Below, piece by piece: positions 48,771 through 64,000 of a DNA stretch of 64,000 nucleotides. Positions within the stretch are counted from its first letter, which is position 1. Every line of letters starts with the position of its first letter. The DNA is from Rosistilla oblonga (GTDB lineage: Bacteria > Planctomycetota > Planctomycetia > Pirellulales > Pirellulaceae): the NCBI RefSeq assembly GCF_007751715.1, contig NZ_CP036292.1, forward strand, positions 2,418,001 through 2,482,000. The letters are read 5' to 3'. The translations under genes and the position numbers were made by a program. The notes below the pieces were generated by a model. The model ran no database searches, was not told the origin of the DNA, and saw only the letters and a list, made by a program, of their open reading frames with translations.

Positions 48771-49595
48771 TCAATTGCCGATCGAGACCAATTGATTCAG
48801 GTTGCCCGACCGCAGCCCTTCGATATCGACGGTGATGAACTGGAAGCCGAGCGAACGGAAGTGTCGGCTCATCCGCTGGCGAAACTCCGGCTGCACCAAT
48901 TCAGCGATCCGCGCCGCGGGGACTTCGATCCGCGCCAACTGTCCCGGATGCAATCGGACGCGAAGTTCGGCAAAGCCTTCGTCGCGGAGCCAGTTTTCCG
49001 CGCGATCGATCTGTTGCAGCTTGTCGACGGTGACCGGTTCGCCATACGCGATCCGGCTGGCCAAACAGGGACCCGCTGGCAGATCCCAAACCGACAATTC
49101 CCAGTGCTTTGCCAGCTGGCGGACCATCGTTTTGGTGATCCCAAGATCGGCCAACGGCGTCTGCACCGCGGCGTCGCGACCGGCTTGGATGCCCGGTCGG
49201 TGATCGCCTAGATCGTCGGCGTTCGTTCCGCTGCAGATCACGCTGTCGCGGTGCTCGTCGGCGATCGTCGCCAGCGTTTGATAGAGTGTCTGTTTGCAAT
49301 AGAAGCAGCGTTGGCCATCGTTGCGTTGGTAATCGGGACGTTCGGTTTCGTGAGTTGAGATCGTTTGTAGATTGATCCCAATTTCCGCAGCCACCTGCGC
49401 CGCCAATTCGCTCTGCCGCTCCGGCACGCTGGGGCTGATCGCCCTCACGGCCAACGCCTTGTCGCCCAATGCTCGCTGCGCAGCGGCGGCGACCACCGCG
49501 CTGTCGACTCCGCCTGAAAACGCGACGACGACGCGGGAATGCCGCTGCAGTTCATCGATCAAACGTTGGGCGGTCGCTTCAGTTTGCATCATCAC
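48771..49595 (-). CDS. larE: ATP-dependent sacrificial sulfur transferase LarE
   Basis: 274 residues, PP-loop ATP pyrophosphatase. P-loop VVVAFSGGVDSAVVAAAA, then NDGQRCFYCKQTLYQTLA, SGTNADDLGDHRPGIQA and WDLPAGPCLASRIAYGE, where the Cys of PCLASR is the sulfur-donating residue that becomes dehydroalanine in LarE. LarE builds the nickel-pincer cofactor of lactate racemase-type enzymes. No larA, larB or larC lies in the window. Three successive ATGs make the exact start uncertain by two residues. It begins 17 nt inside the preceding methyltransferase gene. Confidence 0.9.
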   Translation of the reverse strand: MMMQTEATAQRLIDELQRHSRVVVAFSGGVDSAVVAAAAQRALGDKALAVRAISPSVPERQSELAAQVAAEIGINLQTISTHETERPDYQRNDGQRCFYCKQTLYQTLATIADEHRDSVICSGTNADDLGDHRPGIQAGRDAAVQTPLADLGITKTMVRQLAKHWELSVWDLPAGPCLASRIAYGEPVTVDKLQQIDRAENWLRDEGFAELRVRLHPGQLARIEVPAARIAELVQPEFRQRMSRHFRSLGFQFITVDIEGLRSGNLNQLVSIGN

Positions 49596-50525: not shown

Positions 50526-50910
50526 GGTGAACCATCGCGTAGCGGAACTCGTCAAGAGTTTCGGAAGGAAGACTCGCCGTGGATCGAAAGTCTTGACGAC
50601 TTCCGCTACGGCAACAATACGGTGAACCACCCCGTAGCGGAACTCGTCAAGAGTTTCGGAAGAGCGGGTAACTGCCGTGGATCGAAAGTCTTGACGACTT
50701 CCGCTACGGCAACAATACGGTGAACCACCCCGTCGCGGAACTCGTCAAGAGTTTCGGAGGAGCGGGTAACTGCCGTGGATCGAAAGTCTTGACGACTTCC
50801 GCTACGGCAACAATACGGTTCAGGATCGCGTCGCGGAACTCGTCAAGAGTTTCGAGAGGAGCGGGTAACCGCCGTGGATCGAAAGTCTTGACGACTTCCG
50901 CTACAGCCGA
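50526..50910. repeat. Four tandem hairpin units upstream of the pup-like gene
   Basis: Four similar units begin at 50526, 50621, 50719 and 50817 (period 95-98 bp). Each contains arms GTAGCGGAACTCGTCAAGA and an approximate complement ending GACTTCCGCTAC, so each can form a long hairpin. Units 1-3 are closest to each other; unit 4 has a different first ten bases and extra changes. The repeat fills the gap between the methyltransferase gene and the promoter at 51023. Confidence 0.92.
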
Positions 50911-51022: not shown

Positions 51023-51051
51023 TTGTGACCCGCAAATCTTTCTTCTATAAT
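51023..51051 (+). promoter_or_regulatory. Sigma-70-like promoter of the pup-like gene
   Basis: TTGTGA (51023-51028) and a perfect TATAAT (51046-51051) are separated by 17 bp. A transcript starting near 51058 would have a leader of about 65 nt before the GTG start at 51124. The promoter lies downstream of the alternative in-frame ATGs at 50941 and 50956, which excludes these as starts of this transcript. Confidence 0.7.
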
Positions 51052-51111: not shown

Positions 51112-51116
51112 AGGAG
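51112..51116 (+). promoter_or_regulatory. Ribosome-binding site fixing a GTG start
   Basis: AGGAG with 7 nt spacing before GTG 51124. This decides the start of the Pup-like protein as a 51-residue peptide rather than a 112-residue product of the longer open frame. Confidence 0.8.
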
Positions 51117-51123
51117 CGCCCCT

Positions 51124-51279
51124 GTGAAGACGGACACCATTCTCGAAGCACCGCAGACCAGCGAAACGTTGCCTCAACCGCAAACCTTGGAACAGATCAT
51201 CGACCGAGTCGCCGTCGATGCCCAAGATCAACCGCAGCGATATCTGGACGAGGTTGTCGTTCCCGACGGCGGCGAATAA
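51124..51279 (+). CDS. Pup-like small modifier protein ending in Gly-Gly-Glu
   Basis: 51 residues from GTG, chosen because of the AGGAG site and the promoter just upstream. The N-terminal half is polar and probably disordered (KTDTILEAPQTSETLPQPQ). The C-terminal half, LEQIIDRVAVDAQDQPQRYLD followed by EVVVPDGGE, aligns by eye with the Pup C-terminus (helix with acidic residues, then a short tail ending KGGQ). A terminal Glu means it could be ligated without prior deamidation, as for Pup homologues encoded with Glu. The next gene on the same strand, after 109 nt, is a Pup-ligase homologue, which strongly supports the call. It is shorter than mycobacterial Pup (64 residues). Targets are unknown. 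Confidence 0.82.
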   Translation: MKTDTILEAPQTSETLPQPQTLEQIIDRVAVDAQDQPQRYLDEVVVPDGGE

Positions 51280-51388
51280 ATCGATCGGCGAATCTTTTAA
51301 AGGGTGGGGCGACGATCGATCATCGCCCGACCGAATCAGCCCGTCGGGGCGTGCTGTTTGAATTTGCGCACCCCGGCAGGCGAAGCTC

Positions 51389-53071
51389 TTGAAAACCAAC
51401 GCTCCAATCTTTCAACGCTTACTGGGGCTGGAGACCGAATACGCGATCCGCTTTCGGCCGCACCAAGACGGGCCGCCCGTAAAACAGATCGAACTCTATC
51501 GCTCGCTGTTGGAGAAGTTCCGGGAGCGATTGCCGACGGCGACCGGCAGCCTCTTGGAAGAGAAGCACTTCACGGCCAACGGCGGCACGATCGGTTTCGA
51601 ACGCGTTTTGCATGCGGGCGGTTTTGGGCTGATCGAAGCGGCGACGCCGGAGTGCCAGAGTCCTCGCGATGCTTTGGTCTGGCAGCGTGCTCAAGATCGT
51701 TTGCTCAGCGAGTCGGCGGCCAGTTGTCGCGACGATGGCGAACTGGTCTTGATCAAGAACAGCCGCGACAGCCAAGGGAACGCCTACGGCACTCACGAGA
51801 ACTACGAGATCCAAGTCACCGGCTGGCTGGGGCTCGCGTGTTGGCGTGTTGTCTTGTTGTTAGCGGCGACGATCTGTCTGCTGTTTTGGGTAATCATGGT
51901 CCCGTTGGTGATCGTCGCGATCCCCGCGTACCTGTTGATTGCTGTGGCGGTCTATCCGTTTGCTGTGATGCGAACCGACAGCGGGCAGCGAGCGGAATTG
52001 TTCCGTAAGTTCTTCGGCGATGGATTCGACACATCCGAAGATGCCACGCCGATCCCACGCTCGGTCGAACGGGCACTGAACCGCGTGGCGATGATCGCAC
52101 TGAGTCCGATGCTGTTGACGATCATCGTCGCTGCCAGGTTCTGTCTGTATCGTCGACATGTCCGAATGTTGACGCCGTTTTTGGTCAGCCGATCGATCCT
52201 CTCGGGAAGCGGTTGGGTTTCCCATAGCGGCGATTTTTTGTTGGCTCAGAAAGCTCCCGTGCTGCGATTTATCTTTGGTCCGCTGGGCAACCACGCTTAT
52301 CCTTTGTTCAGCGTCGCCCATCTGATGGATGCTTGCCTGATCGGATGGTTTAATCCGATGGACCTCTTCAGCAACCTGGGTTCACGCCAACGGATGCAAG
52401 TCTGTTTGGGAGACTGCAACATGGCGGAGGAGGCTGAATATCTGCGGCTCGCCACGACCACATTGATGATCGATGCGATCGAAGCGGGCGCGATCAAAAA
52501 TCCACCGCGCGTTCGGCGACCGATGCGCGCATTGCAAGCTGTGGTTCGGGACGAACCGATCGAGCGTGCGATCGCCGTCCACAACGGCCGACCGATGACA
52601 GCACTCGACGTCCAGCGATGGTACCAAGCCGCTTGCCGCCGATTTGTGGAAGCCAATCAGAATCGGCCCGATGAAGCGTACGAAGTGCTACAGCGGTGGA
52701 GCGATGTGCTGGATGGATTGGCCGGTGATCGCACGATCCTTGTCGGCCGCATCGACTGGGTGACCAAGAGGATGTTGTTGAAACAAGCGGGCCAGAACCT
52801 GCCGTTGCCGGCCAACCGCAAGCTCGACATCAAGTACCACGAACTCTCATCCGACGGGTATTACTTGCTGCTGGAATCGGCGGGTGAGACCGAGCAGATC
52901 GTCAGCGAGCAGGAGATCCTGCGAGCGATGCGCCAGCCGCCTCCCACACCACGCGCGATGCGGCGTGGCAGTTTCATCCGCGAATTCTCCGGCACCGACA
53001 CTCCCGTGCATGCCTCGTGGAACAGCATCCGTCTGGGCAAAGCCTTCGGCAACCGCCGCGTCCGACTGTAG
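51389..53071 (+). CDS. Membrane-inserted Pup ligase/deamidase (PafA/Dop)-family protein
   Basis: 560 residues; TTG is the only usual start after the in-frame stop at 51359-51361. PafA/Dop features in order: LGLETEYAIRF (residues 13-22, metal/ATP Glu), NGGTIGFER and LIEAATPEC (64-89), LIKNSRDSQGNAYGTHENYE (121-140), LTPFLVSRSILSGSGWV (261-277), QVCLGDCNMAEEAEYLRLAT (337-356), ALDVQRWYQ, IDWVTKRMLLKQ, LDIKYHELS and PPPTPRAMRRGSFI. Between residues 143 and 256 is an insertion not found in PafA or Dop: two adjacent membrane helices (about 146-194) and a third (about 232-254). The residue matching the catalytic Asp of the HPEYATPEC-preceding region is not evident (see findings). It would ligate, or remove, the adjacent Pup-like protein at the cytoplasmic membrane face. 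No proteasome genes lie in the window. Confidence 0.85.
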   Translation: MKTNAPIFQRLLGLETEYAIRFRPHQDGPPVKQIELYRSLLEKFRERLPTATGSLLEEKHFTANGGTIGFERVLHAGGFGLIEAATPECQSPRDALVWQRAQDRLLSESAASCRDDGELVLIKNSRDSQGNAYGTHENYEIQVTGWLGLACWRVVLLLAATICLLFWVIMVPLVIVAIPAYLLIAVAVYPFAVMRTDSGQRAELFRKFFGDGFDTSEDATPIPRSVERALNRVAMIALSPMLLTIIVAARFCLYRRHVRMLTPFLVSRSILSGSGWVSHSGDFLLAQKAPVLRFIFGPLGNHAYPLFSVAHLMDACLIGWFNPMDLFSNLGSRQRMQVCLGDCNMAEEAEYLRLATTTLMIDAIEAGAIKNPPRVRRPMRALQAVVRDEPIERAIAVHNGRPMTALDVQRWYQAACRRFVEANQNRPDEAYEVLQRWSDVLDGLAGDRTILVGRIDWVTKRMLLKQAGQNLPLPANRKLDIKYHELSSDGYYLLLESAGETEQIVSEQEILRAMRQPPPTPRAMRRGSFIREFSGTDTPVHASWNSIRLGKAFGNRRVRL

Positions 53072-54758: not shown

Positions 54759-57700
54759 TTAGAACAACTCGCCGAAGACAAGGTCGACAGCGTTCTCGTA
54801 CTCGTCCTTGGAGTTGGCATCTTGTTCCTGCAGATCGCTGGGGCTGTCTGGCGACTGGATTTCGACGGAGTTCGGCGAATCGAAACTCGCTGCTTTGGTC
54901 GTCTTGCTGCCTGACAGGAACGCGTCGACTGCGGCGTCGTAAAGTTCGGGACTCTCGTTCGAGGAGTCGCGATCGTCGAACTCGCCCTCCGGTGGTAGCC
55001 CGGTGCCTGCCAACGCAGCCGCTTGGTTCACGTGGTTGAGCACTTGCAGCGCGTCGAAGGGAGTGACCCGACGATCACCATTGACGTCAATCATCGATTC
55101 GCCATCGCTACTTTGGTCGGACAACGACGCATCGCTGGTCGTGTTCAATCGGTTGATCACAATCAACGCATCGATCGGCGTGATCGCCCCGTCTCCGTTG
55201 ACGTCTCGCGGTTCGGAGACGTTCTGCCAGACGCTGCGGTCCTCGACGGAGCGTAGAACAAACGTCGTGCTGGAAAATTGGACCGGCGTGCCGCGATCGG
55301 TCGCCGTGACTCGGATCGACCACTGGCCCGATTCGGGAATCGAATCGCTGTGGAAACTCTGCGACGTCGGATCGAACGACAACCAGTCGGGCAACGGCGA
55401 TCCATCGGTCAGGCGTGCGTTGTAAACGAGTGTTTGATCCGAATCGGGATCGACAAAGGAGTCGCTTGGAACGTCAAACGCAAACGGCTTGTCGACCGTC
55501 GCCGTGAAACTCGGCAGGTCGTCGGACAATTCGGGAGCTGCGTTGTCGGGAGCTGCGTTGTTCTGAGTGACGACGAGGGGAGAACCGGCGATACTCAACG
55601 GCAAGACATTGGTGACCTGCGGATTGGGAGCCAATTCAAATGCTTGGAACAGATAGTCTTGGCCCTCCATCGTCAATGGAATCGGAAGCAAGCCGGAAGT
55701 CGTCCCGTCGCTTCCACCTTCGGCCAGGGAGGCGAGGGTGGGATTCGCGATTCCCAGCGTCACCCCAAATTGCGGAAAGTAGGTTGAGCCCGGTTCGGTC
55801 CCCCAGACAAAGACGACCACTCCGTCGGGCGTAACCCCCGAAACTTCCAACCAGAGCTGTTCGTTAAGCACTTGCTGGAAGCTGATGATCGGTCCATCAC
55901 CCGAACTGGTGACCTGCAGGTTATCCAAGGGCATCGCGTCGTACTTTGGATCGTCGCTGGCGACGGTGGGTTCAATGGCAAATGTCGCGATGCCATCGTC
56001 AACGCCATCATCCTGCCCCTGGATTGTCAGCGTTTGAGGTTGATCCCAATTGGCTGGCGTAAAGGTCAGCGTCGTCGTCGCGGCAAACGGTTCGCCATTG
56101 GTGGAAACCAGTCCTTGGGTGGAGTCCGTCGTGGTCCACTGCACCGTGACCACGTCGGTCGGTTGCGATTCAAGAACGACGGTCACGTCGCTGGAACCAC
56201 CATCATCCGATACCGTTAGCCCGGCCGTCGGTTGAACAGCGATCCCCACGGTGTCGTTATCGAGAATGGTTCCCGTCGCGGTCCCCAGTGAAACGGGCCT
56301 CGAACCAAACGACGTGCCCGAGGTGAGATCGACTTGGAAGTCTTCGTCGAATTCATCGATTGCGTCCTGCACGCTGGCAACCGAGAAACTCTGTGATTCC
56401 ACGCTCCCCGCCGCAAAGGTAACCGTCTTCGCCGTGCTGTCGTAATCGACGTTACCGCCGGTCGCGGTGCCGTCGGTAACGTTGACAGTCAAACTCACAG
56501 CGGTGTCGATCGGATTGTCCAACGAAACGGTGAAGAGAGCGTTTCCGCCTTCTTCGATCGATACGTTTTCGACAGTAAACGTTGCCGAGTCGTCGTCGGT
56601 GATCGTGCCCGTTGCGGTATCGGTCGCCGTGACGTCGCGAGCACCAAGCGTCGTCGCGGTGCTGAGCGTTGCGGTGAAGGTCTCGGTCAGTTCGACAAGG
56701 TTTTCTTCAGTCGTGGCGACACTGAAAGTCTGCCCGGTTGTCGACCCGGCGGCAAACGTTACCGTTTGCGCCGCGTTGTTGTAGTCCGATCCTGTGGCGG
56801 TTCCGCCGCTGAAATCGATGTCGACAACGACGGCGGTGTCGATCGGGTTGTCGAGAGAAACGGTGAACAGAGCGTTTCCACCTTCTTCGATCGACACGTT
56901 TTCGACGGTGAAGGTTGCCGAGTCGTCGTCGGTGATCGATCCGGTTGCGGTATCGGTCGCCGTGACGTCACGTGAACCAAGCGATGTCGCAGTGCTAAGC
57001 GATGCGATGAAGGTCTCGGTCAGTTCGACGAGGTTTTCCTCGGTCGTGGTGACACTGAAAGTCTGACCGGTCGTCGAACCGGCGGCGAAGGTGACCGATT
57101 GCGCCGCGTTGGCGTAGTCCGCGGCGCTGGCGGTGCCGCCGCTGAAATCGATGTCGACCACGACCGCAGTGTCGATCGGGTTGTCGAGAGAAACGGTGAA
57201 CAGAGCGTTTCCGCCTTCCTCGATCGTTACGTTTTCTACAGTAAACGTTGCCGAATCGTCGTCGGTGATTGTTCCCGTTGCCGTATCGGTCGCCGTGACG
57301 TCGCGAGCACCAACAGCCGTCGCTGTACTGAGTGCTGCGGTGAAGGTCTTGGACAGTTCGACAAGGCTGTCTTCGGTCGTGGCGACACTGAAAGTCTGAC
57401 CGGTCGTCGAACCAGCCGTGAACGTGACCGTTTGCGCCGCGTTGTCGTAGTCCGAGCCGCTGGCCGTTCCGCCACTGAAATCGATGTCGACAACGACCGC
57501 GGTGTCGATCGGGTTGTCCAACGAAACGGTGAACAGAGCGTTTCCGCCTTCTTCGATCGACACGTTTTCGACCGTGAAGTTTGCCGAATCGTCGTCGGTG
57601 ATCGTTCCCGTTGCGGTATCGGTCGCCGTGACGTCGCGAGAGCCAATCGCCGTCGCGAGGCTGAGCGATGCGATAAAGGTCTCGGTCAGTTCGACAAGGT

Positions 57701-60700
57701 TTTCTTCGGTCGTGGCGACACTGAAAGTCTGCCCGGTTGTCGACCCGGCGGCAAAGGTGACCGTTTGCGCTGCGTTGTCGTAGTCCGATCCGCTGGCGGT
57801 TCCGCCGCTGAAATCGATGTCGACCACGACCGCGGTGTCGATCGGGTTGTCCAACGACACGGTGAAGAGAGCTGTACCGCCTTCTTCGATCGTGGCGTTT
57901 TCGACGGTGAAGGTCGCCGAATCGTCGTCGGTGATCGTTCCCGTTGCGGTATCCGTCGCCGTGACGTCGCGAGCACCAATGGCCGTCGCAGTGCTGAGCG
58001 ATGCGATAAAGGTCTCGGTCAGTTCGACGAGGTTTTCCTCGGTCGTGGTGACACTGAAAGTCTGCCCCGTCGTCGAACCGGCGGCGAACGTGACCGTTTG
58101 CGCTGCGTTGTCGTAGTCCGCGGCGCTGGCGGTCCCGCCGCTGAAATCGATGTCGACCACTACAGCGGTGTCGATCGGATTGTCCAACGAAACTGTGAAG
58201 AGAGCGTTTCCGCCTTCTTCGATTGTGACGTTTTCGACGGTAAACGTTGCCGAATCGTCGTCGGTGATCGAATAGACATGCGTCGATTGGATCGTGTTGT
58301 CACCGTCAGCATCTTCAATTCGCAGCCCCGAGGATGGATTGGTAAGACGCAACTGAACATCTTCGGACAGCTCGACCGAGTTGTCGTCGGTGATGTCCAG
58401 GGAAATCGCAACGGCTGTTGCCAGAGTGCCGTCGTAGGTCCCCGCGGGGATCGTGACGCTGGTGGGGAGAGTGAAGTCCGTGCCAAGCGTTGCGGAGCCG
58501 CCTGTGATGGTCAGGTCGATGGTTTGCGGCGTGTTGACGATCCCGTCGATCAACAACTTGGGAAGGTTGCCTCCATCGGCCTCGGAATCGCTGGCGGTCG
58601 CAACACTAAATTCGACATCGGCATGGAACCGGAAATTCGCTACCGAATCGAGTTCGCCTTGAATCAGGTACGCATCCGCTTCCCCCGTGAATCCGGCCGG
58701 GGTGACCAATGCTGCTGCGGCAGCGGTGGCGTCGGCACGCGTCTCACCGAGAATCGTAAGCGTTGCCAGTCGAAGAGTTTCACCGGCGGGGACGGTGACA
58801 TCGAAAGTCCAATAGACATTGTCGTCGATCACCTGCACCGCGGAAGGTGCCAATCTGCCGGGACCATAGATGTAGTGAATGATTGCGGGTGAACCGGTTC
58901 CATCGGCATCGTCGGTGCCGATCCAACGATCGGTGACGTCCGCGGTTGCGTCGCCGCTGGACGTGGTAAAGACGTTGGTCGCCGCGTCGGAACCGAGATT
59001 TCCGACAACCCGAACGGTCGTGGTGATATCCGCGCCCGTCGCGTTCTGCAATACTTCGATCGTGCGCACGAAGTCTTCGCTTCCGTCGGCGAGCAGGGTG
59101 ACTTCCCGCGATACCGTCAGACCGCTGAGAGCCTGTGAACCGGTGGCGACGGTTGCTCCCGAATCGGTGAGCGTTCCGGAGGCAGTCGGTTGGAAGTCGA
59201 CGCCGTCGATCTGCAAGCGGTTCAGGCCGTCGAACGCATTGTCGGGCCCCTCGATCAACTGGCCACTTCCATGGTTTGCCATGTCGATTTCAATATCCGC
59301 TCCTCCCGCGGACTCTACATCGACAACAAAATCAATCCGGAAGCTGCCGCCGGCGGCTCCATCGCCGTCACCGTCGATTGGATAGCCTGCGGGATCGGTC
59401 AACGTGTCCGCAACCACCAATCGGTAAACGCTTTCGGTGAGTCCAGCGAAGGCCAGCGTGACCGAATCGCCGTCGTAAGTCGCCGACGTGATCGTCACTT
59501 CCACATCGTCGCCGCTTCCCAACAGGCCGTCTTGCCCGACCGAAACCAGCGTAAAGGGAGCTGTCGCGGCAGTCGGGTCGACGTCACGACTGAAGTCGAT
59601 CGTCAATTCGGTTGTTCCCGAAACGATCACCCCCGCGTCCAGATCGGGAACCGTGACAGTGACCGGTTGGAAGTCCGTTACCGTCACCGTTACAGTGCTC
59701 GAAGAGGTCGCGCCGTTCTGATCACGCATCGTGTAATCGATCGCGACGGTCGCTAGTTGGCCGGCGGAAAGTTCATCAAACGCGGGGCCGGGATCAAAGA
59801 CAACCCGATTCGCAACGATGCTGACCGAACCGGCTGCGGCGGGGGAACTGGCGAGTCCGGTTGTCGAGGCGATCGATACGCCGGTCAGTAAGAAATTGCT
59901 AGGACCGTCGTCGCCATCGACATCGGTGTCGTTAGCCAGGGCGTCGATCGTGACCGGGGCACCCAGCAAAGTCGACGCCGCATCGGCCGCCGCGACCGGA
60001 TCGTCGTTCACCCCGTTGACCGTGACGGTAACCGTTGCGGAATCGGTTAGGCCTTGGGAATCTTCAATCTGATAGGTAAAGGTCACATCGACCGAATCGC
60101 CAAGATCCAGATCGTCAAAGTCGCCATCGGGATCGAATGTGATCGTGCCATCGGCGTGGTTGTTCAGCGTTCCTAACGCGGGAGCGCTTAGCGCTACGGT
60201 GAGTGTGCGATCCAGATTGTCTTCGGCATCCGAATCGACCCCATTCCCATTGTCCGCAAAGAGATCGATCAACACCGACGCATCTTCGGTCGTGCTGACG
60301 GCGTCGGGTTGGGCGACAGGTGCCGTGTTGACGACAAACAACAGTTCCACGTCATCTCCGTCCCCTCCTCGATACGTGATCCAAGCGGGACGCCCCGAGC
60401 CGAGGAAATCGCTGCTGATCGTCGCGCCTTCGGGAAGGCCGTCGAACGTCCCAGACCCGCCGGTGCGTTGGATGATCGTGTAGCGCTGGTTGCCGACCGG
60501 AGTGTAGCCGATCATTCCTGCAACGTTCAGCGCGACCCCGGTTCCAATGTCGACCGATCCGGTTGCGTCGATTTGGTCGTGAAAACCGCTGCCGTTGCCC
60601 GCACCGGAGCCATCGAGGTCGACAGTGAAGCTGCTGTTATCGGCAAGCAGCATGTCGCCGTCGGCGCTGAAAATGCCGACCGATGCACCTGGCTGCAGGT

Positions 60701-63700
60701 TACCGAACAGACGTAGCGTTTCGACAGTCAGGTCGGCGCCGGCGGTATTTGTGTCGGTGATCGCACCGTCGCTGTGGATTTCCAGCAGCTGTGCGTTGCC
60801 GGTCAGATCGATCGCCGCGTTGATCGTCACATCGCCACTGCTGGCGTCGCCGACAATCAGCCGTGGGGTCGAGATCAAATCGAGTTCGGCATCGGTCAGC
60901 CCAAGACTGTCCGCGACGTGAGTTCCCAGGCTGATCGGTCGATCCGTTTGCGCCGAAGCGATGGAAACGCCATCGGTCGATAGGATCTCGGCTTGCAAGT
61001 CGACGTCTGCCGCGTGCAGCGCGATCGAGCCATCGCCAGCATCCAACGCACCCGTGCCCAGCCCAAAACCAGACTCCTGCGAACCAAGGACCACTCGGCC
61101 ACCGCCATCGTTGGGAAGCCGAATAAATAGACTGTCGCTATTTTCATCGGCCACCACCGTCCAGTAATCGACCCCTACGTTTGTGGTGCCAATCACGCTG
61201 TTGGTGCCGGAGATTACACCGCTGATCCCCGCGCTGCCGCTGACCCAGGTCAAAGCCGCTACATCGGTCGCCGCACCGTTGTCCCAGTCGGGACTAATCA
61301 CGACAAAATTGCCGTTGGCAATCCTCGTAAGAAAGCCACTGCCGACCATATCGTCTGCCTGGGAACCGACAAGGCTGTTGGCCGCGCTGACTTCGCCGCG
61401 GACTCCCGTGCTGCCGTCACCCCAAGTAACAGCACCGGCGTTGGCGACGGTCCCGTTGGCCCAGTTGGGACTGAAGACCAGATAGTTGCCGTTGCCGAGG
61501 TCTGCGATAGAGGACCATCCCACTCGGTCATTTGCGGTGGAACCGACAAGGCTGTTGCTGGCGCTGATCTCGCCGGTGATTCCCGTGCTGCCGTCTGCCC
61601 AAGTAACCGCCCCCGCATCGGTTACCGCACCGTTGTCCCAGGTGTGACTGCCGACCACATAGTTGCCGTTGTCGAGCGCCCTCACACCCAAGCCCACTTG
61701 GTCTCCAGCCGTGGAGCCGACGAGGCTGTTCGCAGCGCTGATCACGCCGGTGCTTCCCGTGCTGCCATTACCCCAAGTAACCGCCCCCGCATCGGTTGCT
61801 GTGCCATTGTCCCAATACTGGTTGTGGATCACAAAATTGCCGTTGCTGAGCGCCGTCAAATCGGACCGCCCTACATTGTCGTCGGCCGTGGAACCGACGA
61901 GGCTGTTAGCAGCGCTGACGATGCCAATCGTGCCGGTGCTACCGTCTCCCCAAGTAACCGCTCCCACGTCGTCTGCCGTATCGCTGTCCCACAAATGACT
62001 ACTGACGACATAGTTGCCGTTGCTAAGCGCCAGTACATTGGAGAATCCCACTTGGTCATTCGCGGTGGAACCGACGAGGCTGTTAGCCGTGCTGACCACG
62101 CCGCTAATTCCGGTGGTGCCGTCGCCCCAAGTAGCCGCGCCCACATCGGCCGTAGCTCCGTTGTCCCAATCGGAGCTGGAGACGACATAGTTGCCGTTGC
62201 TGAGCGGCGTCACCCCGGCGTTGCCGACATAGTCATACATATTGGAACCAACGAGGCTGTTAGCGTCGCTGACCACGCCGGTAATTCCCGTGGTGCCGTT
62301 GCCCCAGGTAACCGCGCCCGCATTGTCTGCCGCTCCGTTGTCCCAGCGGGGGCTGGCGACGAGATAGTTGCCGTTGCTGAGTTCCGTCACGCCGTAACTG
62401 CCGACTGCGTCATACGCCGTCGAACCGACGAGGCTGTTGCTGGCGTCGATCACACCGCGGACTCCCGTGCTCCCATTGCCCCAAGTTACCGCCCCCGCAT
62501 TGGTTTCTGTGCCATTGTCCCAATAGTAGCTAACGACAACGTAGTTACCGTTGCTAAGAGCCGTGACGTTGCCGTTGCCGATGTTGTCAGACGTGTTGGA
62601 ACCGACAAGGCTGTTGCTGGCGCTGATCTCACCGCTGACTCCCGTGCTGCCATCGCCCCAGGTAACCGCTCCCACATTGAAATCCGTCCCGTCATCCCAT
62701 AATGGTGACTGGACGACATAGTTGCCGTTGCTGAGCGGCGTCACCCGATGCAAGCCCAGCATGTCAAAATCGCGGGAACCGACAAGGCTGTTGCTGGCGT
62801 TGACCTCACCCTGGACTCCCGAGCTGCCGTCCCCCCAGGTAACCGCCCCAGCATTGGTCGCTGCACCGTTGTCCCAGAGGGAACTGCGGACGACATAGTT
62901 ACCGTTGCTTAGTTCTGTCACGCCGCTATTGCCGACGCTGTCATCCGTCCGGGAACCGACGAGACTGTTGCTGGCGCTGACCGCGCCGCGGACTCCTGTG
63001 CTGCCGTCGCCCCAGGTCACAGCCCCTGCGTCGATCGCCGCACCGTTGTCCCAGAGGAGACTGCGGACGACATAGTTGCCGTCGGTAAGCACTGTCAAAT
63101 ACTCGTCGCCGACGTTGTCATCCGCCGTGGAACCGACCAGACTGTTGCTGGCGCTGACCACGCCACTGATTCCAGTGCTGCCGTCGGCCCAGGTTACCGC
63201 ACCGGCGTTGGTTGCCGCACCGTTGTTCCAATGCGGGCTTTGGATCACATAGTTGCCGGTGGCAATCGCCCTCACGCCGCCGCTACCGATCCGGTCATCG
63301 TCGCCAGATCCTAGCAGCGTGCTCAGTAATTCCCCTGTCTGACCGTTAAAGAGATAGACAGCGCCTGCGTCGTTGCCGCCAGCGTCATCATAGGGGGAGG
63401 TGACGACGACGTTGCCCGACGTCAACGGCACAACGGTGGCACCAAATTGATTGCCGGTGGCTGGGTTGGGATCGACAAACTGAGCCAGCGCCATCGCGAG
63501 TGTCAGCGTGCCGCTGCCATCCCCATCGCTATCGGCTTTTAAGGTCTGCAGGCCGCCGTTCGAAAGCAGGGGAGCCGCGATGGTGATGTCGTTTGTTGCA
63601 TCGAGCGAAATCGATCCGCCGCCGGTCTCGATCGAAGCCTCTGTGTTGATCGTGTCGGAAGTGATCGCCAACTGTTTGTCAGCCAGCGAAATCGAACCGT

Positions 63701-64000
63701 TGATGTTCACGGTATCGTCGCCCGACTGGCCATCGATGATCAGATCGGCAGCGTAATCGGAGGCGAGTCCATCGACGTTGATCTGATCGGCACCGTCCCC
63801 GGCGTTAATCGTTAATGAACCACTCGGATTCAGGAACGTTACCACTTCGCCCGCCGTCGAATCGACGGTGGTGCTTCCTGCACCGGCATCGGTCACTACG
63901 ATCGTTTCGTCGACCGAACTGTAGTTCAACGTCACGTTCGTTGCATTGATCGTCGACGCGATCGGCTCGAGCCCCAAATACGAAATCGTCGGATTGCCGC
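54759..64000 (-). CDS. Giant Calx-beta/cadherin-like/dockerin surface protein, N-terminus outside window
   Basis: At least 3080 residues; the frame is still open at the right edge, and the start lies beyond it. From N- to C-terminus the visible part has: a haemagglutinin-like beta region (to about 63,400); about 12 repeats of roughly 50 residues with NSLVGS...NGNYVV.S..WDNG...AGAVTWGDGSTG (61,190-63,400); two cadherin/VCBS-type domains (AEDNLDRTLTV, NDTDVDGDD, 59,700-60,350); a sortilin-like/unique region; six Calx-beta repeats of 111 residues (56,250-58,260) plus one diverged; a cadherin-like domain (DLPSFTATVDKPFAFDVP); two type I dockerin calcium loops (DVNGDGAITPIDALIVINRL and DVNGDRRVTPFDALQVLNHV); and an acidic tail of about 85 residues. 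An extracellular or surface adhesion/scaffold role is inferred. The dockerin could bind a cohesin partner. Confidence 0.9.
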   Translation of the reverse strand, partial: GNPTISYLGLEPIASTINATNVTLNYSSVDETIVVTDAGAGSTTVDSTAGEVVTFLNPSGSLTINAGDGADQINVDGLASDYAADLIIDGQSGDDTVNINGSISLADKQLAITSDTINTEASIETGGGSISLDATNDITIAAPLLSNGGLQTLKADSDGDGSGTLTLAMALAQFVDPNPATGNQFGATVVPLTSGNVVVTSPYDDAGGNDAGAVYLFNGQTGELLSTLLGSGDDDRIGSGGVRAIATGNYVIQSPHWNNGAATNAGAVTWADGSTGISGVVSASNSLVGSTADDNVGDEYLTVLTDGNYVVRSLLWDNGAAIDAGAVTWGDGSTGVRGAVSASNSLVGSRTDDSVGNSGVTELSNGNYVVRSSLWDNGAATNAGAVTWGDGSSGVQGEVNASNSLVGSRDFDMLGLHRVTPLSNGNYVVQSPLWDDGTDFNVGAVTWGDGSTGVSGEISASNSLVGSNTSDNIGNGNVTALSNGNYVVVSYYWDNGTETNAGAVTWGNGSTGVRGVIDASNSLVGSTAYDAVGSYGVTELSNGNYLVASPRWDNGAADNAGAVTWGNGTTGITGVVSDANSLVGSNMYDYVGNAGVTPLSNGNYVVSSSDWDNGATADVGAATWGDGTTGISGVVSTANSLVGSTANDQVGFSNVLALSNGNYVVSSHLWDSDTADDVGAVTWGDGSTGTIGIVSAANSLVGSTADDNVGRSDLTALSNGNFVIHNQYWDNGTATDAGAVTWGNGSTGSTGVISAANSLVGSTAGDQVGLGVRALDNGNYVVGSHTWDNGAVTDAGAVTWADGSTGITGEISASNSLVGSTANDRVGWSSIADLGNGNYLVFSPNWANGTVANAGAVTWGDGSTGVRGEVSAANSLVGSQADDMVGSGFLTRIANGNFVVISPDWDNGAATDVAALTWVSGSAGISGVISGTNSVIGTTNVGVDYWTVVADENSDSLFIRLPNDGGGRVVLGSQESGFGLGTGALDAGDGSIALHAADVDLQAEILSTDGVSIASAQTDRPISLGTHVADSLGLTDAELDLISTPRLIVGDASSGDVTINAAIDLTGNAQLLEIHSDGAITDTNTAGADLTVETLRLFGNLQPGASVGIFSADGDMLLADNSSFTVDLDGSGAGNGSGFHDQIDATGSVDIGTGVALNVAGMIGYTPVGNQRYTIIQRTGGSGTFDGLPEGATISSDFLGSGRPAWITYRGGDGDDVELLFVVNTAPVAQPDAVSTTEDASVLIDLFADNGNGVDSDAEDNLDRTLTVALSAPALGTLNNHADGTITFDPDGDFDDLDLGDSVDVTFTYQIEDSQGLTDSATVTVTVNGVNDDPVAAADAASTLLGAPVTIDALANDTDVDGDDGPSNFLLTGVSIASTTGLASSPAAAGSVSIVANRVVFDPGPAFDELSAGQLATVAIDYTMRDQNGATSSSTVTVTVTDFQPVTVTVPDLDAGVIVSGTTELTIDFSRDVDPTAATAPFTLVSVGQDGLLGSGDDVEVTITSATYDGDSVTLAFAGLTESVYRLVVADTLTDPAGYPIDGDGDGAAGGSFRIDFVVDVESAGGADIEIDMANHGSGQLIEGPDNAFDGLNRLQIDGVDFQPTASGTLTDSGATVATGSQALSGLTVSREVTLLADGSEDFVRTIEVLQNATGADITTTVRVVGNLGSDAATNVFTTSSGDATADVTDRWIGTDDADGTGSPAIIHYIYGPGRLAPSAVQVIDDNVYWTFDVTVPAGETLRLATLTILGETRADATAAAAALVTPAGFTGEADAYLIQGELDSVANFRFHADVEFSVATASDSEADGGNLPKLLIDGIVNTPQTIDLTITGGSATLGTDFTLPTSVTIPAGTYDGTLATAVAISLDITDDNSVELSEDVQLRLTNPSSGLRIEDADGDNTIQSTHVYSITDDDSATFTVENVTIEEGGNALFTVSLDNPIDTAVVVDIDFSGGTASAADYDNAAQTVTFAAGSTTGQTFSVTTTEENLVELTETFIASLSTATAIGARDVTATDTATGTITDDDSATFTVENATIEEGGTALFTVSLDNPIDTAVVVDIDFSGGTASGSDYDNAAQTVTFAAGSTTGQTFSVATTEENLVELTETFIASLSLATAIGSRDVTATDTATGTITDDDSANFTVENVSIEEGGNALFTVSLDNPIDTAVVVDIDFSGGTASGSDYDNAAQTVTFTAGSTTGQTFSVATTEDSLVELSKTFTAALSTATAVGARDVTATDTATGTITDDDSATFTVENVTIEEGGNALFTVSLDNPIDTAVVVDIDFSGGTASAADYANAAQSVTFAAGSTTGQTFSVTTTEENLVELTETFIASLSTATSLGSRDVTATDTATGSITDDDSATFTVENVSIEEGGNALFTVSLDNPIDTAVVVDIDFSGGTATGSDYNNAAQTVTFAAGSTTGQTFSVATTEENLVELTETFTATLSTATTLGARDVTATDTATGTITDDDSATFTVENVSIEEGGNALFTVSLDNPIDTAVSLTVNVTDGTATGGNVDYDSTAKTVTFAAGSVESQSFSVASVQDAIDEFDEDFQVDLTSGTSFGSRPVSLGTATGTILDNDTVGIAVQPTAGLTVSDDGGSSDVTVVLESQPTDVVTVQWTTTDSTQGLVSTNGEPFAATTTLTFTPANWDQPQTLTIQGQDDGVDDGIATFAIEPTVASDDPKYDAMPLDNLQVTSSGDGPIISFQQVLNEQLWLEVSGVTPDGVVVFVWGTEPGSTYFPQFGVTLGIANPTLASLAEGGSDGTTSGLLPIPLTMEGQDYLFQAFELAPNPQVTNVLPLSIAGSPLVVTQNNAAPDNAAPELSDDLPSFTATVDKPFAFDVPSDSFVDPDSDQTLVYNARLTDGSPLPDWLSFDPTSQSFHSDSIPESGQWSIRVTATDRGTPVQFSSTTFVLRSVEDRSVWQNVSEPRDVNGDGAITPIDALIVINRLNTTSDASLSDQSSDGESMIDVNGDRRVTPFDALQVLNHVNQAAALAGTGLPPEGEFDDRDSSNESPELYDAAVDAFLSGSKTTKAASFDSPNSVEIQSPDSPSDLQEQDANSKDEYENAVDLVFGELF
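56250..58260 (-). repeat. Six Calx-beta repeats of 333 bp within the giant protein gene
   Basis: Six tandem units, each encoding 111 residues from FTVENVTIEEGGNALFTVSL to TGTITDDDSA. They are very similar at DNA level, so recombination between them could change repeat number. Calx-beta domains bind calcium and build rigid stalks. Confidence 0.9.
61190..63400 (-). repeat. About twelve repeats of roughly 50 codons within the giant protein gene
   Basis: Eleven clear copies of a module with NSLVGS, then NGNYVV, WDNG and GAVTWGDGSTG, plus one diverged copy at each end. They differ more between copies than the Calx-beta units do. Confidence 0.85.

Follow-up and report, generated by a model that had tools for sequence, protein, structure and literature searches.

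A probable membrane-anchored, proteasome-independent Pup-like tagging system in the planctomycete Rosistilla oblonga

Experimental knowledge of pupylation comes from actinobacteria, where the tag mostly directs proteins to the proteasome. PafA and PupE are stated to pupylate proteins of E. coli (PMC7947786). Closest to the locus described here is the type reported by Iyer, Burroughs and Aravind in 2008 (PMC2588565), who found Pup in planctomycetes, unannotated in Rhodopirellula, together with ligases of Rhodopirellula (R. baltica) and Plesiocystis pacifica that carry an insertion of four transmembrane segments after strand 4. These ligases showed no proteasome linkage, and tagging of membrane proteins was proposed as a possible function (PMC2588565). 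In the same account Pup has 50–90 residues and a G[EQ] end and is said to be invariably adjacent to its ligase; two ligases, where present, are neighbours, and a heterodimer was proposed for paralogous Pup ligases (PMC2588565). In the searched parts of the papers found, no experimental test of that prediction was met, and the searched parts of two pupylation reviews from 2021 and 2025 do not mention planctomycetes. Planctomycete PafA/Dop homologues, single-copy in some species, have been used as an outgroup equally near to PafA and Dop (PMC7947786, in the parts consulted). These are probably the same enzymes as the ligase type described below, with the difference that the consulted parts of that paper name neither a membrane insert nor a modifier for them.

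The stretch analysed here, termed the window, comprises 64,000 nt of Rosistilla oblonga (GCF_007751715.1, NZ_CP036292.1, positions 2,418,001–2,482,000, forward strand). It encodes a 51-residue protein (MKTDT...VVPDGGE, GTG start) and, directly 3' of it, a 560-residue protein of family PF03136 (TTG start), which is the arrangement of a small Pup-like modifier followed by a PafA/Dop-type enzyme that had been read from the DNA originally (Table 1). Because a membrane-inserted ligase with Pup is described in PMC2588565, the window system belongs to a kind already predicted in 2008, and the statement in the original prediction that no such system was known has to be withdrawn. Like the type of Iyer et al. 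(PMC2588565), it has a Pup-like neighbour with a G[EQ] end and an insert that directly follows core strand 4, and proteasome genes are not linked to it; Plesiocystis pacifica itself was retrieved in our search for relatives (L244), with a GGE modifier. With the actinobacterial Pup–PafA–Dop–proteasome system it shares the ligase fold, the ATP motif and a short, predicted two-helix modifier with a GG[EQ] tail. It differs from that system in having no 20S proteasome, no Mpa/ARC over the cut-off and no Dop partner, in a Glu that replaces the catalytic Asp, in the membrane insert, and in a modifier that is unmatched by PF05639 and encoded with Glu, compared with Gln in actinobacteria.

Table 1. Positions of the features of the modifier–ligase locus in the window
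Feature	Positions	Strand	Basis or remark
Promoter-like TTGTGA-17-TATAAT	51023..51051	+	10/12 matches; unchanged in two congeners
AGGAG, ribosome-binding-site-like	51112..51116	+	7 nt 5' of the modifier GTG
Pup-like modifier gene	51124..51279	+	positional conservation, purifying selection, two predicted helices
Modifier–ligase spacer, 109 nt	51280..51388	+	read from the sequence
Membrane-type Pup ligase gene	51389..53071	+	PF03136 match, AlphaFold2 model, PDB matches
GLETE (GhExE ATP/Mg motif), residues 13–17	51425..51439	+	alignment of membrane-type rows
Glu71 codon, place of the PafA/Dop catalytic Asp	51599..51601	+	alignment
Membrane insert, about residues 145–255, after the HENY strand	51821..52153	+	hydropathy and model helices

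The modifier gene and its conservation

The small gene had been credited with a promoter and a ribosome site of its own. The ribosome site is borne out by the AGGAG before the start codon; a promoter belonging to the modifier is plausible at most, because 1.1 sites of the TTGTGA-17-TATAAT type are expected by chance over the scanned stretch. Just upstream of the gene (50542–50901) lies an array of four tandem units, each about 98 bp long, with palindromic GCGGAASTCGTCAAGASTTTCG arms. Exact copies of GCGGAASTCGTCAAGASTTTCG number 8 in this interval and 35 genome-wide, the reversed pattern is absent, and the units look like REP-type repeats. Elsewhere in the window, the minus strand encodes a LarE sulfur transferase (48774–49595; TIGR00268, 304.3 bits) and a 3072-residue ORF (54759–63977), whose many repeats resemble Calx-beta and cadherin-like segments when the sequence is read.

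An ORF ending in GE was found upstream of the ligase in 104 of 143 loci and one ending in GQ in none of them, and the antisense (143 loci) and downstream (136 loci) controls each held two loci with any G[EQ]-ending ORF; the 143 loci are sequence-distinct, scored as membrane-type and have at least 500 nt upstream, close relatives are counted separately, and the soluble-type L154 is included. Positions that played no part in the selection are conserved as well: among the 101 ORFs picked by their GE end, 90 have Asp at −20, 86 have Tyr at −12, and 91 have Ile or Val at −23. Conservation is limited to about the last 30 residues, which are expected to be the part that meets the ligase; both length and sequence vary in the first half. 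The pooled pN/pS of 16 related ORF pairs is 0.45, and the modifier ORF is under purifying selection. Three of these pairs (L213/L215 and two near-identical pairs from Rosistilla itself) have dN above dS, and sequences within the genus are too alike for a selection test.

Co-occurrence was assessed with a profile built from the 32 C-terminal residues of the modifier and run on the genomes of the family to which the window genome belongs. The profile matches 105 of 120 ligase-bearing and 2 of 121 ligase-free genomes and, after removal of 29 family genomes that were sources of profile rows or congeners, 76 of 91 against the same 2 of 121. The Fisher value for this co-occurrence, 1.9e-39, overstates independence because the genomes are related. 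The two ligase-free genomes with a match are a draft that is 86% complete (G571) and one in which the match lies inside a 348-residue frame (G544); 15 of the 120 ligase-bearing genomes have no modifier match at E 0.02 or less. A lack of conservation of the ORF and its GGE end in related genomes had been named in advance as the result that would speak against the original prediction, and this survey of neighbourhoods and genomes found strong evidence of the opposite.

Adjacency of modifier and ligase is rejected as a rule. Among 149 loci with enough upstream sequence, 35 have no upstream candidate ending in [GAS][EQ], and when 10 genomes without an adjacent modifier were searched whole, nine proved to have one elsewhere (E < 0.01), in every case with a DGE end and, where it shares a contig with the ligase, about 0.6 Mb or more away. 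The tenth genome, G592, yielded none (best E 2.44), and in two ligase-free control genomes nothing scored better than E 0.98. In this respect the system departs from the adjacency described by Iyer et al. (PMC2588565): several genera have an unlinked modifier, and in R. oblonga two ligases lie far apart, each with a modifier of its own (see below).

With 51 residues and a GGE end, the window modifier falls within the length range and end described for Pup. Its predicted fold consists of helices 22–35 and 37–43 with flexible ends (mean pLDDT 78.2, pTM 0.42), which agrees, at moderate model confidence, with the two-helix core and extended tail of Pup. The profile search suggested in the original prediction as a check came out negative. 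No Pfam family, PF05639 included, matches the window modifier at E 10; PF05639 has no match in the same genome, in any of 39 modifier rows or, above its cut-off, in any of 392 planctomycete genomes. A sequence search against solved Pup chains likewise gave nothing at E 10, and comparison of the modifier profile with a profile of five soluble-type modifiers showed no kinship (probability 1.7). As the comparisons with the Pup profile and with the soluble-type modifiers both fail, we do not file the modifier under PF05639 and call it ‘Pup-like’ on the strength of its context, length, predicted form and terminal Glu.

The ligase, its insert and its active site

The ligase matches PF03136 with an E-value of 4.3e-81 (273.6 bits; cut-off 25), and it stays below both equivalog models, with 176.1 bits for PafA (TIGR03686; cut-off 551.3) and 184 bits for Dop (TIGR03688; cut-off 492.3), so that the two scores are about equal. 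Its AlphaFold2 model, built with 61 sequences, has a mean pLDDT of 93.3 and a pTM of 0.93. The best PDB matches of the model are Dop (7oxy; TM 0.82 by target length) and PafA (4bjr; 0.73), and the best 11 fold matches are all PafA or Dop; weak matches include YbdK and gamma-glutamylmethylamide synthetase. The motifs of the family are in place, with GLETE at residues 13–17 corresponding to GhExE of strand 1 and HEN at 136–138 to [HQ]x[NH] of strand 4; G13, E15 and E17 are present in all 116 membrane-type rows of the alignment.

The protein is a PF03136 member of the membrane type. The insert that had been noticed in it from the letters is confirmed by hydropathy, which reaches 2.83 in 19-residue windows against at most 1.25 elsewhere in the ligase, and in the model it forms helices at 146–195 (50 residues), 198–209 (short) and 224–253 (30 residues). 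From hydropathy and model, the ligase seems to be anchored in the membrane via this helical insert. Because both ends of the insert return to the catalytic domain, the passes should be even in number, and either two or four may fit the model. This set of one 50-residue, one 30-residue and one short helix is unlike the four transmembrane segments given by Iyer et al. (PMC2588565).

A catalytic Asp is common to PafA and Dop; as D94 of Dop, it likely activates water (PMC8599861, in the part consulted). The window ligase has Glu71 instead of Asp at the aligned place. Of 116 membrane-type rows, 115 carry Glu at this position; of the 20 soluble homologues in which the position is occupied, 19 carry Asp. 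The soluble homologues are all planctomycete, and the match to the named Asp rests on motif context.

A second pair in the genome

As originally stated, no further PafA/Dop paralogue is found nearby; the genome does have one. This second PF03136 gene lies about 1.9 Mb away (C1:584122-585714, minus strand); its product is 35% identical to the window ligase and scores 157.2 bits to the Dop model and 166.4 bits to the PafA model, again below the equivalog cut-offs. It is preceded by a modifier of its own, a 55-residue ORF that ends in QQQGE and has its stop 4 nt before the likely GTG start of the ligase. Both pairs, the window pair (A) and this one (B), are also carried by the congeners G552 and G553, each assembled as a single contig.

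In a tree of 121 ligases, the second ligase falls inside a 49-row clade (support 99) and the window ligase outside it; this is a quick tree with SH-aLRT support only, in which pair B is represented by the congener L066, L002 having been dropped since its first 200 residues are identical to those of L066. The tails of the adjacent modifiers divide in the same way: a GGE end occurs in 0 of 22 inside the clade, compared with 60 of 62 outside, a count that omits rows ending in AE (L016, L017, L025, L238) as well as those lacking a candidate next to the ligase and that includes two soluble-type rows (L154, L155) among the 62. Profiles of the two modifier types built without this genus assign the window modifier to the outside type (38.2 bits against 9.8) and the second modifier to the inside type (26.1 against 11.7), and leave-one-out assignment agrees with the clade in 83 of 84 cases. 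Modifier and ligase distances correlate with a coefficient of 0.584, the maximum in 1000 permutations being 0.274; part of this correlation is shared ancestry. Ligases of both types occur in Roseiconus nitratireducens (G595) too, where the inside-type enzyme has no adjacent modifier.

The second pair, with its differently ending modifier, is probably a parallel tagging system, which would operate separately from the first. One may go further and suppose that the ligases of pair A (GGE) and pair B (QGE) are anciently diverged membrane enzymes that each read their own tail, with an active-site Glu in place of the Asp of PafA and Dop, so that one cell would write two distinguishable membrane tags; we offer this as a tentative idea, which the odds do not favour at present. 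With two tags and two ligases in one genome, tail specificity would be measurable in this genus. Paired double systems, the Glu substitution and unlinked modifiers were not met in the published papers found, as far as these were consulted (PMC2588565 in its main text; journal papers as distinct from preprints), and may be new.

Proposed tagging and its alternatives

No 20S proteasome was found in the genome, where the lone PF00227 match is HslV-like and stands beside an HslU-like ATPase. Nor does any protein score over the cut-off for Mpa/ARC; of three matches below it, two appear from their sequences to be FtsH-like and the third, with 496 residues, to be an AAA+ protein. A link to the proteasome is rejected on these grounds, the combination of 20S and Mpa/ARC that marks the Pup–proteasome route being absent, and what had been stated for the vicinity of the locus extends to the whole genome. 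The surroundings of the pairs are equally bare. Clustering of the neighbours of 80 loci revealed no shared third gene, the largest cluster being present in 11 of them, and no recurrent gene for export, immunity, tailoring, a protease or an unfoldase; neither ligase has a match to a PADLOC defence system.

Our preferred reading, which we hold to be likely, is a two-gene, membrane-anchored tagging system that works independently of a proteasome. The analysis shows that both genes are present, conserved and found together across genomes, that the ligase has the fold and the insert and the modifier the terminal Glu, and that a 20S proteasome and Mpa/ARC over the cut-off are lacking; catalysis, an isopeptide bond, membrane targets and a regulatory role are what we infer. 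The modifier would be produced with its C-terminal Glu already encoded and, as was foreseen, would need no deamidase. Sitting on the cytoplasmic face of the membrane through its helical insert, the ligase would phosphorylate the gamma-carboxylate of this Glu with ATP, and the activated modifier would then be attached to lysines in proteins that are located at the membrane or close to it. The enzyme should act as a ligase because 104 of the 120 ligase-bearing genomes of the family have a single PF03136 match. The tag would probably alter the behaviour of its targets rather than send them to a proteasome; regulation is the simplest reading because there is no proteasome, no Mpa/ARC and no recurrent protease neighbour.

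Degradation by another route is an unlikely alternative, in which conjugates would pass to a membrane protease (FtsH) or to HslUV in place of the proteasome. The genome does encode two FtsH-like proteins and an HslUV-like pair, and FtsH has a membrane location that the ligase seems to share, but genes for proteases or unfoldases do not recur near the pairs, and the variable first half of the modifier leaves no common docking segment visible, which counts against degradation. Somewhat less probable again is that one or both enzymes resemble depupylases or work both ways, the paralogues dividing ligation and removal between them or forming a heterodimer of the kind proposed by Iyer et al. The Dop structures at the head of the fold matches and the near-equal Dop and PafA scores of both ligases would suit such a role. 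Against it, a lone remover would find nothing to remove in the many genomes with a single PF03136 match, and each paralogue has its own modifier type; in the ligase model the Dop-loop, 37 or roughly 40 residues long, was not seen, helix 33–45 and strand 59–62 being only 13 residues apart, and the place of Dop D94, credited with water activation in the consulted part of PMC8599861, is taken by Glu.

We give very little weight to the notion that the small protein is an end product in its own right, with a small amine or amino acid coupled to its terminal Glu in the way that related carboxylate-amine ligases mature peptides: fold relatives act on small molecules, and YbdK and gamma-glutamylmethylamide synthetase appear among the weak matches, yet PafA and Dop fill all the top ranks, genes for export, immunity or tailoring do not recur, and the form is that of Pup, with a flexible N terminus, two helices and a flexible GGE tail. 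The view of the small ORF as a product of chance, which its shortness, GTG start and lack of a Pfam family could suggest, is rejected as practically inconceivable in view of its conservation upstream compared with the antisense control, its co-occurrence with the ligase and its pN/pS.

The membrane-type class was found in Planctomycetota, Myxococcota, Acidobacteriota and Spirochaetota. If the preferred reading, a proteasome-independent membrane tag, is true, a proteasome-free class across four phyla would show that tagging with Pup-like peptides serves membranes too. A membrane-type ligase with a GGE modifier (L211, L222, L219) was also seen in metagenome bins of Leptospiraceae and in Candidatus Uabimicrobium amorphum, an engulfing planctomycete. 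Genomes of the family furthermore contain pairs of large soluble PF03136 proteins (L145, L148; also G448, G461, G578 and G579), which measure 673–1079 residues in the four checked, and some of these genomes carry a membrane-type ligase elsewhere.
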